A stretch of 40,291 nucleotides of DNA from contig JAFGWA010000021.1 in the NCBI GenBank assembly GCA_016937715.1, positions 1 to 40,291 on the forward strand. Direction: 5' to 3'. Below are positions 1-10,478 of the stretch, piece by piece (within the stretch, counting starts at the first letter, position 1; every line of letters starts with the position of its first letter). A program made the position numbers and the translations under genes. The notes beneath the pieces are model-generated. The model was not told the origin of the DNA. It worked only from the letters and a program-made list of their open reading frames with translations, and ran no database searches. The DNA comes from Candidatus Goldiibacteriota bacterium (GTDB taxonomy: Bacteria > Oederibacteriota > PGYV01).

Positions 1-730
1 AAACAAGGCGGTCAAAGGCACAAATATACATAAGGTATAGGTCGCCCCCCGCGCGGGGGCGTGGATTGAAACTTTCGTCGCCATATTTATATAATAAAAA
101 CACGAGTCGCCCCCCGCGCGGGGGCGTGGATTGAAACAGCTTGTTTTCCTAATTCTTCAAGCGCGGCCATGTCGCCCCCCGCGCGGGGGCGTGGATTGAA
201 ACATTACCTACCGGTACAGATATAAGAAATTTGGATGTCGCCCCCTGCGCGGGGGCGTGGATTGAAACCCGTTCCTATTGCATACGCGCCAGCGACAGCG
301 AGCGTCGCCCCCCGCGCGGGGGCGTGGATTGAAACAGACAATGGGAGAAAAAAGAGAACTGACAAGAGGGTCGCCCCCCGCGCGGGGGCGTGGATTGAAA
401 CCGTTGTAGCAAGTATGATTTCAAAATGGTCAACACGTCGCCCCCCGCGCGGGGGCGTGGATTGAAACGGAGTAAATAAATTAATAAACTTTTTACAGGT
501 AAAGTCGCCCCCCGCGCGGGGGCGTGGATTGAAACCGCTACAATTTTGGATATTCGGGCCGCCGCTATGTCGCCCCCCGCGCGGGGGCGTGGATTGAAAC
601 TCAGCTGTTGCTCATAGATGCTGAAAAAGCAGACGTCGCCCCCCGCGCGGGGGCGTGGATTGAAACTTAACGCCCTTAAAGTCTAAAATAAGCTGGCAGG
701 TCGCTCCTGCGCGGGAGCGTGGATTGAAAC
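1..730 (+). CRISPR. CRISPR array, type I-C-like repeats, leader end outside the window
   Basis: Eleven repeats start at 41, 106, 171, 237, 304, 370, 437, 504, 569, 635 and 700. The 32-nt repeat begins GTCGCCCCCC, continues GCGCGGGGGC and ends GTGGATTGAAAC. The window opens with AAAC, the last four bases of another repeat, followed by a 36-nt spacer, so the array continues leftward. Spacers are 33-36 nt and all different. Each repeat can form a 6-bp GC stem (GCCCCC with GGGGGC) around a 5-nt loop. The repeat at 237 has one C-to-T change in the loop; the one at 700 is 31 nt with changes on both stem sides. The ATTGAAAC end and rightward decay put the crRNA strand on plus and the leader to the left. 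Repeat type is inferred from sequence resemblance to I-C repeats; no cas genes are visible. Confidence 0.97.
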
Positions 731-956
731 GGTTATCAGGGTAGATATGACGAATACCGTCGGCGTGTTTCCATTGTGAATAGGTATTATTTGAATTAGT
801 GGAGACAGGCTGTGGATTGAAACAATAAAAAAGGCGGAGTGGGAAAAACCACAAACTATCGCCTTCGCACAGGTCGGTGGATTGAAACGCCAAAGGCATA
901 CTGATAATAACGGGCAGGAAAGCAGTCACTCTTTGTGTGCGGGGATGTTATTGTGG
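731..956 (+). repeat. Decayed trailer end of the CRISPR array (three fossil repeats)
   Basis: Beyond the last good repeat, positions 792-823 and 857-888 end in a perfect GTGGATTGAAAC, but their first 20 bases no longer match and cannot form the stem. A third fossil, about 925-953, keeps the 5' part instead: it starts GTCACTCTTTGTGTG and differs from the repeat mostly by C-to-T and G-to-A transitions. The intervals 824-856 (33 nt) and 889-924 (36 nt) have normal spacer lengths, which supports reading all three as former units. The 61-nt interval 731-791 has no recognisable repeat. Confidence 0.75.
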
Positions 957-1014
957 AATAAATAACTACTAAATAGTTATAAGATTTATTTTTAAGATTT
1001 ATTATTTTTATTTC

Positions 1015-1043
1015 TTTTATATAAGATAAACCTTTGATATAAT
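1015..1043 (+). promoter_or_regulatory. Candidate promoter of structured RNA copy 1
   Basis: A perfect TATAAT lies at 1038-1043. A weak -35-like TTTTAT sits 17 nt upstream at 1015-1020. The same arrangement, within a conserved stretch, is found 211 bp downstream ahead of the second RNA copy, which supports a real promoter. The predicted start is near 1050. Confidence 0.55.
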
Positions 1044-1049
1044 TTCAAA

Positions 1050-1147
1050 TATCAATAAACAGTTAAAACCGATTATATAGCCCGAAGGATCTCCGGCTAC
1101 TAAATCCCTCCCAAGATTCTATTAGCCACCTTCGGGCTTCTTTTTTT
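1050..1147 (+). ncRNA. Structured small RNA, copy 1 (unrecognised family)
   Basis: A predicted transcript of about 98 nt runs from the TATAAT at 1038 to a T run at 1141-1147. Its 3' half folds as nested helices: a perfect 10-bp outer stem (AGCCCGAAGG at 1079-1088 with CCTTCGGGCT at 1129-1138), an inner GGCTA/TAGCC stem, and an AATC/GAUU stem around a C-rich loop. The outer stem plus T run also looks like an intrinsic terminator, but the conserved inner stems and loop exceed what termination needs. I found no coding frame and do not recognise a known riboswitch or RNA family. It could be a small RNA or an attenuated leader without a gene. The end points are inferred. Confidence 0.5.
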
Positions 1148-1225
1148 GTATGCTTGTAATAAAAAATGATATTTATAGAATCGGAACGGTAATTGTAAGG
1201 TGGACAATTATTTAAAGATTTTTTC

Positions 1226-1254
1226 TTTTATAAAACATAAAGCTTTGATATAAT
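1226..1254 (+). promoter_or_regulatory. Candidate promoter of structured RNA copy 2
   Basis: TATAAT at 1249-1254 is preceded 17 nt upstream by TTTTAT at 1226-1231, the same arrangement as at 1015-1043. The flanking bases CTTTGATATAATTTCAAATA are shared by both copies. Confidence 0.5.
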
Positions 1255-1260
1255 TTCAAA

Positions 1261-1357
1261 TATAAATAGACATATAAAGCATATTCCATAGCCCGAAGGA
1301 TCCCCGGCTTCTAAATCCATCCCAAGATTCTATGAGCCACCTTCTGGTTTCTTTATT
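1261..1357 (+). ncRNA. Structured small RNA, copy 2 (tandem paralogue)
   Basis: This is a diverged duplicate of the RNA at 1050-1147. The core CTAAATCC, CCCAAGATTCTAT and GAGCCACCTTC is kept. The inner stem has become GGCTT/GAGCC, so a U-A pair is replaced by U-G and still pairs. The outer stem (AGCCCGAAGG at 1290-1299 with CCTTCTGGTT) now has one mismatch and one wobble, and the T run is weaker. Copy 2 may therefore read through toward the membrane-protein gene at 1516, which would make it a possible leader for that gene. Function unknown. Confidence 0.45.
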
Positions 1358-1515
1358 TCGTGATTTTCTGCGGCTGTAATGAAAATCTGATGCAATTTGC
1401 AGATATAGGACAGTTGAAATCCTACACTTTTATAAAAACCTCTTATTTTAAAGGTAATAACTCCGGTATGTTTATTGCTACATAATAGGTATATAAACAA
1501 TGCGGAGGAGTAAAA

Positions 1516-2139
1516 ATGAACAAAATAACAAAAGGGTTTAAAGTTTCACTGGTGATATTAGCAGCGGCGGTAGTTTTTTCTGCAGTCTCTAATTTAATGA
1601 TTACATCTCAGGAAAATAAGATTGCAGTGCTGGTGTCGCAGGATAAAAAGATATATTCAGAAGCCATAATGTTAAGAAAAAATATATCAGAATTGGTTTC
1701 AATGCAGGCTGAAGCGGCGGTGGTACCGGCCGGGGTAAATGAAGTTTTCAAGAATATAAAAGAAACACTTAACTATTTTGCCAAAGTAAGCCCGCAAAGA
1801 ACCGCGGAAATTAACGCTCTTTACAAAGGCGTGAATAAGCTGAAGGATAACGCGCTTAACGGCGCTTCTGCCGCAGGCGCGTGGAGGATATTCGGGCAGG
1901 CGGATGAATTTGTAGGTAATACAATTAAGTCTGTATCCGGCAAAAGTTACAAATTACCGGCATGGGTATTTATATTGCTTTTTATCAGCAGAATAATATG
2001 GGCGGCGTTTTTTGCGGTGTTTGCCGGTTTTGTTTATTACAAAGTGTCAGGTTTATATAAAGAAGGTGTATTTGAGAGGTTTACTAAGAACAATCCGGTT
2101 GTTTTAGGATTATCAAGGTTTATAAATTTGCTAATGTAA
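1516..2139 (+). CDS. Hypothetical protein with two membrane segments
   Basis: This 207-residue protein is not one I recognise. It has an N-terminal hydrophobic segment (about residues 9-30), a mostly helical polar stretch of about 115 residues without cysteines, and a strong second membrane segment (about 148-177) followed by a short basic tail. The layout, an external helical domain between two membrane helices, resembles sensory input modules, but no signalling domain follows. The start is well supported by GGAGGAG at 1503-1509. It stands alone between the tandem structured RNAs and a terminator at 2212. Confidence 0.8.
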   Translation: MNKITKGFKVSLVILAAAVVFSAVSNLMITSQENKIAVLVSQDKKIYSEAIMLRKNISELVSMQAEAAVVPAGVNEVFKNIKETLNYFAKVSPQRTAEINALYKGVNKLKDNALNGASAAGAWRIFGQADEFVGNTIKSVSGKSYKLPAWVFILLFISRIIWAAFFAVFAGFVYYKVSGLYKEGVFERFTKNNPVVLGLSRFINLLM

Positions 2140-9941: not shown

Positions 9942-10478
9942 TTAACTGAAGTGGAACATTGAATATAAGTCATTTCCCTTTGTATCATCTATAACCACTG
10001 CGTAAAAATCTTCCACTTCCAGTTTGTAAATTGCCTCCGGGCCAAGTTCCGCAAAAGCCACAACTTCGGACTTTATAACAGACCTGGCGTATTCAGCTCC
10101 TAAGCCGCCAAGAGCGGAAAAATACACAGCTTTATTCTTTGCAATAGCGTCTTTTACCGGCGTGGTACGTTCGCCTTTTCCTATCATTCCCTTAATTCCA
10201 AGCTGTAAAAGCATAGGGGTGAATTTATCCATGCGCGATGATGTTGTGGGGCCGCAAGAACCTATCACGTTTCCCTCGCGCGCGGGTGTGGGGCCGCAGT
10301 AATAAATAATCTGGTTTTTAAAATCAAGAGGAAGTTTTTCCTTTTTTTCCACCATTTCCGCTATCCTGGCGTGGGCCGCGTCGCGCATTGTGTATATGGT
10401 GCCGGAAATAAGTACTTCGTCGCCGGTCGTTAAATCCTCTATTGTCTCCGCGTCAAGCGGGGTTGTAATCTTTTTCAA
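9942..10478 (-). CDS. Fumarate hydratase class I, beta subunit
   Basis: This 178-residue protein matches the C-terminal (beta) half of class I fumarases and tartrate dehydratases: GDEVLISGTIYTMRDAAH near the start, YYCGPTPAREG and GSCGPTTSSRMD in the middle, and GKGERT before the C-terminal part. With the alpha subunit it interconverts fumarate and malate using a [4Fe-4S] cluster. The start is TTG at 10478, supported by GGAGG six bases upstream and the conserved N-terminus. It is last in the minus-strand TCA operon, 18 bp after the alpha subunit. Tartrate or another hydroxyacid is an alternative substrate, but malate dehydrogenase next door favours fumarase. Confidence 0.9.
   Translation of the reverse strand: MKKITTPLDAETIEDLTTGDEVLISGTIYTMRDAAHARIAEMVEKKEKLPLDFKNQIIYYCGPTPAREGNVIGSCGPTTSSRMDKFTPMLLQLGIKGMIGKGERTTPVKDAIAKNKAVYFSALGGLGAEYARSVIKSEVVAFAELGPEAIYKLEVEDFYAVVIDDTKGNDLYSMFHFS

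Follow-up and report, generated by a model that had tools for sequence, protein, structure and literature searches.

A well-supported family of structured RNA hairpins with an invariant C-rich loop, putatively anti-Shine-Dalgarno, in one order of uncultured bacteria

Two tandem hairpins near the start of the 40,291-nucleotide contig analysed here, which we refer to as the window, are members of a structured RNA family that has so far gone uncatalogued; this family is well supported and, as far as searched, confined to one order of uncultured bacteria. Judging from the sequences, we consider it fairly probable that these are multicopy, trans-acting small RNAs, the exposed C-rich loop of which would serve as an anti-Shine-Dalgarno seed of the UCCC type; the base-pairing mechanism and the targets are those that we infer below. 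The window elements would then be two small non-coding RNA genes arranged in tandem, diverged members of the family. The species of the order are referred to as G000 to G013.

The two window copies are direct repeats (positions 1008-1147 and 1219-1358) that are 86% identical over 140 bp, and their spacing of 211 bp agrees with that given in the initial annotation. Each copy is laid out as a promoter-like site, the sequence TTTGATATAATTTCAAATA, about 30 less conserved bases, a hairpin of about 60 nt and a T-rich tail (Table 1). The identical stretch pointed out earlier corresponds to TTTGATATAATTTCAAATA at positions 1033-1051 and 1244-1262, and the TATAAT reported for each copy is preceded by TG, as in an extended -10 element, with a sigma-70-like score of 10 out of 12; these are predicted promoters, from which both copies would be transcribed. 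Only the two window copies have this identical promoter stretch: TTTGATATAATTTCAAATA was not found without mismatches elsewhere in the genome, and a plain-sequence search of the 2.59-Mb genome yielded no third copy of the window element.

Table 1. Features of the two window copies, and boxA-like sites at other members
Feature	Position	Strand	Basis or remark
Copy 1 promoter-like site, TTTATA-16-TATAAT, TG before the -10 (extended -10)	1016..1043	+	hexamers identical in copy 2
Copy 2 promoter-like site, TTTATA-16-TATAAT with TG	1227..1254	+	promoter scan
Copy 1 predicted RNA, about 95-99 nt	1050..1148	+	putative start 7 nt past the -10; putative end at the T tail
Copy 2 predicted RNA	1261..1358	+	start and end predicted as in copy 1
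Copy 1 family hairpin	1079..1138	+	fold; R3 match of 63.1 bits; covariation
Copy 1 outer stem, AGCCCGAAGG / CCTTCGGGCT	1079-1088 / 1129-1138	+	fold
Copy 1 inner stem, GGCTA / TAGCC	1095-1099 / 1123-1127	+	fold
Copy 1 loop core CCCTCCCAA, UCCC / anti-Shine-Dalgarno-like	1106..1114	+	invariant columns, 28-member alignment A5
Copy 1 T-rich tail TCTTTTTTT, immediately 3' of the stem (terminator tail)	1139..1147	+	sequence
Copy 2 family hairpin	1290..1349	+	fold; R3 match of 52.3 bits
Copy 2 outer stem, one mismatch and one G-U	1290-1299 / 1340-1349	+	fold
Copy 2 inner stem, GGCTT / GAGCC	1306-1310 / 1334-1338	+	fold
Copy 2 loop core CCATCCCAA	1317..1325	+	alignment A5
Copy 2 interrupted T tail TCTTTATTT (weak terminator)	1350..1358	+	sequence
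boxA-like sites at L096, L053, L097, L099, L110, L107, L050	26-43 nt upstream of hairpins

Compared with shuffled sequences, copy 1 folded with a z-score of -4.3 (equalled by 0 of 200 shuffles) and copy 2 with a z-score of -2.2 (equalled by 5 of 200). The three helices described earlier were recovered in the folds, although only the outer stem is a feature of the family, and the compensating change of the inner stem, from GGCUA/UAGCC to GGCUU/GAGCC, was correctly identified as a replacement of A-U by U-G. The terminal T run, in contrast, holds for copy 1 and is broken in copy 2. Because the outer stem of copy 2 is also damaged, with one C-U mismatch and one G-U pair, this copy should be the poorer terminator; it is either degenerating at stem and tail or reads through. 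Neither copy was called in a terminator scan, since the scan allows short loops only.

The membrane-protein gene at window positions 1516-2139, the product of which had no match in a Pfam/NCBIfam search, is kept in two sister species at 55% to 58% identity. The hairpin pair is absent upstream of the orthologue in both, and is therefore no required leader of the gene; it has been gained or kept only in the present genome, and duplicated. Given this absence and the damage to copy 2, these two window copies could be decaying.

No Rfam match was obtained for either copy, in keeping with the earlier statement that no known family was recognised, and none of the Rfam 15 covariance models reached its gathering threshold in the window. 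A covariance search seeded with both copies had been set beforehand as the test by which the structured RNA could be refuted, and it recovered homologues with stem covariation. The model built from the two copies (R1) gave one full-length match in 384 genomes (E=1.6e-5), which was located in G005, a species of another family in the same order; the only other match, in G098, was a plain terminator. Rebuilt with G005 added (R2), the model identified relatives of 64-69 nt in the same genus and order, which have the C-rich loop ACCCCUCCCAAACCCC in common and GC stems that differ in sequence. R2 together with the loop pattern recovered orthologous hairpins in three sister species and more members in other genera of the order, and a scan of 44 genomes of the phylum with the loop pattern, followed by reading of the sites within the order, gave 28 hairpins. 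A third model (R3) was built from 12 of these on a structure-true alignment; all of its matches at E<=0.01 in the 384 genomes fell within the order, and laxer filters added G003, with a tandem triplet, G004, G009 and others. In total, the family comprises about 40 hairpins in 13 of the 14 genomes of the order, with no genome having more than about seven; the source genome contains seven, including the two in the window.

Several other candidates were rejected. Three R3 matches outside the order (E 0.03-0.05) had no good hairpin or no loop core and look like chance. R2 matches of 59-73 nt (L051, L057, L059-L061, L063-L065) were dropped because they had no such loop, and those of about 40 nt are as long as plain terminators are. 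The single blastn match of copy 1 among 59 relatives, in G008, was an AT-rich chance alignment within a gene. Exact and gapped patterns gave nothing in viral and genome contigs, or chance matches without a proper hairpin. Phage matches in three Mammaliicoccus records (E=8e-3, 58 nt) were not credible, and the plasmid search gave nothing credible. In 14 member loci, the sole Rfam match was a TPP riboswitch in L096 (positions 10003-10101, minus strand), which is located between a family hairpin and a gene that resembles ThiF in sequence.

The sole invariant stretch in the family is CC[C/A]UCCCAA, which is present in 28 of the 28 aligned members (A5), and CCCUCCC or a close variant is retained in most of those identified later. 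Its UCCC lies single-stranded in the loop of all 28, being unpaired in the predicted folds of the window copies and explained by the enclosing stem alone in the folds of the other members. The members are single hairpins with loops of 17-41 nt around the core, the least certain being G007 C77 and G010 C85, which have a small extra hairpin inside the loop. For the stem, 97.9% of the cells in an alignment of 27 distinct rows were paired, compared with 61% after shuffling, and 9 of 9 stem pairs had changed on both sides. The covariation of the stem in these 27 rows, aligned by fitting to the model, was 0.94, as compared with 0.24 in shuffled and at most 0.30 in slid alignments; in a MAFFT alignment of 12 sequences that was unfitted to any model it was 0.88, as compared with 0.26. 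The proposal that the loop is conserved beyond the needs of a terminator is thus borne out by an invariant loop and strong stem covariation in homologues across the order. The orthologous hairpins of sister species are almost identical, whereas their flanks drift. The near-identity of orthologues, the invariant loop and the preserved pairing therefore indicate that both the loop sequence and the pairing of the stem are under selection.

The tandem arrangement recurs outside the window, as pairs and as one triplet. The triplet (L148, positions 1084-1567, in G003) has a spacing of 203-227 bp and is located between genes for an ArsR-like regulator and a cysteine-synthase-like protein. In three genomes from two families, the hairpin is identical over 54 bp (L149, 1188-1241; L150, 1265-1318; L151, 1315-1368); these copies, from G004, G009 and G011, have unrelated or strongly drifted flanks, which suggests either extreme constraint or horizontal spread.

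Promoter-like sequences define two groups of members. Group A (G000, G001, G002, G007 and G013, from two families) has TTGACT-16/17-TATAAT, with TATATT in G013, ending about 66-77 nt upstream of the hairpin, and group B has TTGCAA-16-TATAAT directly ahead of it; in both groups the promoter sequences are conserved while the remaining flanks drift. For about half of the members, no convincing promoter was found within 120 nt upstream. Downstream of the hairpin, several members have a separate ordinary terminator and others a ribosome-binding site with a start codon, and still others are located in 3' regions. The family thus probably includes both free-standing and UTR-borne RNAs. The genes beside the hairpins vary between groups and encode, for example, a D-2-hydroxyacid dehydrogenase, a sigma-54 activator, an HD/GAF protein and a ferredoxin-type protein, a diversity consistent with action in trans. 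A boxA-like GYTCTTTA was observed in 8 of 42 stretches upstream of members, with 0.13 expected from shuffles, the matches including orthologues and so being non-independent; boxA is the NusB/NusE antitermination signal of rRNA leaders.

In the mechanism that we propose, each RNA would display the near-invariant CC[C/A]UCCCAA as a single-stranded C-rich loop atop a GC-rich stem, the sequence of which changes by locus while pairing is kept. The loop would pair in trans with G-rich Shine-Dalgarno sites of the form GGGAGG or GGAGG in a set of mRNAs and block ribosome binding, the stem, together with its T tail or a downstream terminator, would end and protect the RNA, and copies with separate promoters could connect different signals to one target set.

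The target statistics draw on the window, on other contigs of the same genome that total about 315 kb and on a few member loci. In the window and these contigs, GGAGG is present at 22% of the translation starts, compared with 1.4% of internal ATG contexts. For copy 1, the apical loop favoured starts over internal ATGs by 2.0 kcal/mol, compared with 0.4 for shuffled loops, none of 60 being as strong; the 16S tail behaved likewise (2.3 versus 0.5). Full-length loops were non-significant in this duplex test (z=-1.0 for the 33-nt loop of copy 1, z=-1.4 for that of the canonical member), and the test provides weak evidence because any C-rich loop tends to pair with Shine-Dalgarno sites. Some of the best predicted partners carry GGGAGGG, and TTGGGAGGG occurs, for example, at G000 C5, L165 start 15424. 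The gene at 1516 did not stand out among the predicted targets of the window RNAs, ranking only 98 or 158 among 277 starts. Lipoprotein starts scored better on average (p=0.001), which we treat as a lead only because the 16S tail showed the same tendency (p=0.006); GGGAGG was present at 3 of 12 lipoprotein starts versus 6 of 297 others, a difference confounded by start-site calling and generally stronger Shine-Dalgarno sites. It would be a speculative extension, which we regard as unlikely, that the family forms an order-wide post-transcriptional network in which several RNAs with separate promoters, some of them carrying a boxA-like leader, use one shared anti-Shine-Dalgarno loop to jointly tune targets with GGGAGG sites, possibly enriched for lipoproteins.

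The main rival to an anti-Shine-Dalgarno riboregulator is that the C-rich loop is the site of an RNA-binding protein, such that separate transcripts would act as sponges and UTR copies as cis-acting sites. Hairpins that occur in many copies and combine an invariant loop with stems of differing sequence, as in the present family, are typical of protein sponges, and the loops of CsrB and RsmZ are recognition sites for CsrA. Several members are located in UTRs beside unrelated genes rather than on free RNAs, and the conserved stretch ACCCCUCCCAAACCCCUUAU is longer than the match to the Shine-Dalgarno sequence. However, the loop core is a near-perfect anti-Shine-Dalgarno sequence, a property that a protein site would not require, and we give this explanation roughly a one-in-five standing, as a serious but unlikely one.

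More improbable is that the hairpins are terminators or attenuators with an unusually long loop, the RNAs being the ends of upstream transcripts or leader attenuators. A T tail directly follows the stem in the window copies, G005, G007 and some others, and the G005 hairpin is located downstream of a methionine-synthase-like gene. This explanation has largely been refuted by the members without T tails, such as GGGGGTCTAAAAAAAA: a GC stem with a direct U tract is seen in the window copies and G005 but not in L050, L054, L055, L096 or L149. Moreover, a separate ordinary terminator follows some members, a terminator does not need an invariant loop, and with R1 and R2 the scores of ordinary terminators reach about 26-30 bits at most.

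We have even less confidence in an element acting as DNA, either a dispersed palindrome of the REP or MITE type or a C-rich loop with a G-quadruplex on the opposite strand. The reverse strand of many loops, as read from the sequences, fits a four-tract G-quadruplex pattern, tandem copies exist, and the hairpin that is identical in G004, G009 and G011 has unrelated flanks. Yet there are at most about seven copies per genome, orthologous positions are kept between species, conserved promoter sequences are located at a fixed distance from several copies, and it is the loop and not the stem that the loci have in common, the opposite of mobile palindromes.

The trailer end of a CRISPR array is located at window positions 40-889 (13 copies of the repeat GTCGCCCCCCGCGCGGGGGCGTGGATTGAAAC, of which the last two are degenerate), its leader end lying past the contig end. 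That the pair represents a tracr-like or array-derived RNA of this system is scarcely credible: the pair adjoins the degenerate trailer end of the array, but it has no evident similarity to the repeat, and the family distribution already contradicts such an origin. The link to CRISPR suggested in the initial annotation is unsupported and the array is probably an incidental neighbour, because among all fetched loci the repeat motif was found in the window only.

We favour the anti-Shine-Dalgarno riboregulator because of the duplex preference and because of known RNAs with comparable loops. UCCC loops have been reported to block Shine-Dalgarno sites in LhrC, RNAIII, RsaE, SprD and FsrA (PMC4132741). 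Listeria LhrC1-5 likewise constitute a multicopy family with UCCC in the loops, including the terminator loop, and LhrC has been shown to block a Shine-Dalgarno site (PMC4132741). However, the three UCCC sites of LhrC are spread over two stem-loops and a linker, whereas the window RNAs have one long GC stem, one C-rich loop with a single UCCC core and no Rfam match; neither homology to LhrC nor its two-stem-loop architecture was found, and the bacteria are unrelated. The rhizobial RNAs SmelA075 and SmelA099 have an invariant anti-Shine-Dalgarno CCUCCUCCC loop on freely varying stems in repeated hairpins (PMC3927594), but belong to a different lineage and carry three or four hairpins per transcript with the motif CCUCCUCCC, rather than single hairpins with the core CC[C/A]UCCCAA. 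In the mycobacterial 6C sRNA, or B11, C-rich loops bind G tracts in mRNA leaders, but there are two such loops per RNA (PMC10470900), and the present RNAs have no Rfam match. The catalogue of RNA families thereby gains a well-supported member from uncultured bacteria, with a covariance model and a clear prediction. On the reading that we favour, the family would be convergent with LhrC, the rhizobial CCUCCUCCC-loop RNAs and 6C. If the mechanism is true, stems of freely varying sequence topped by C-rich anti-Shine-Dalgarno loops evolved independently in at least one further distant lineage, and such loops would represent a recurrent design for bacterial riboregulation.
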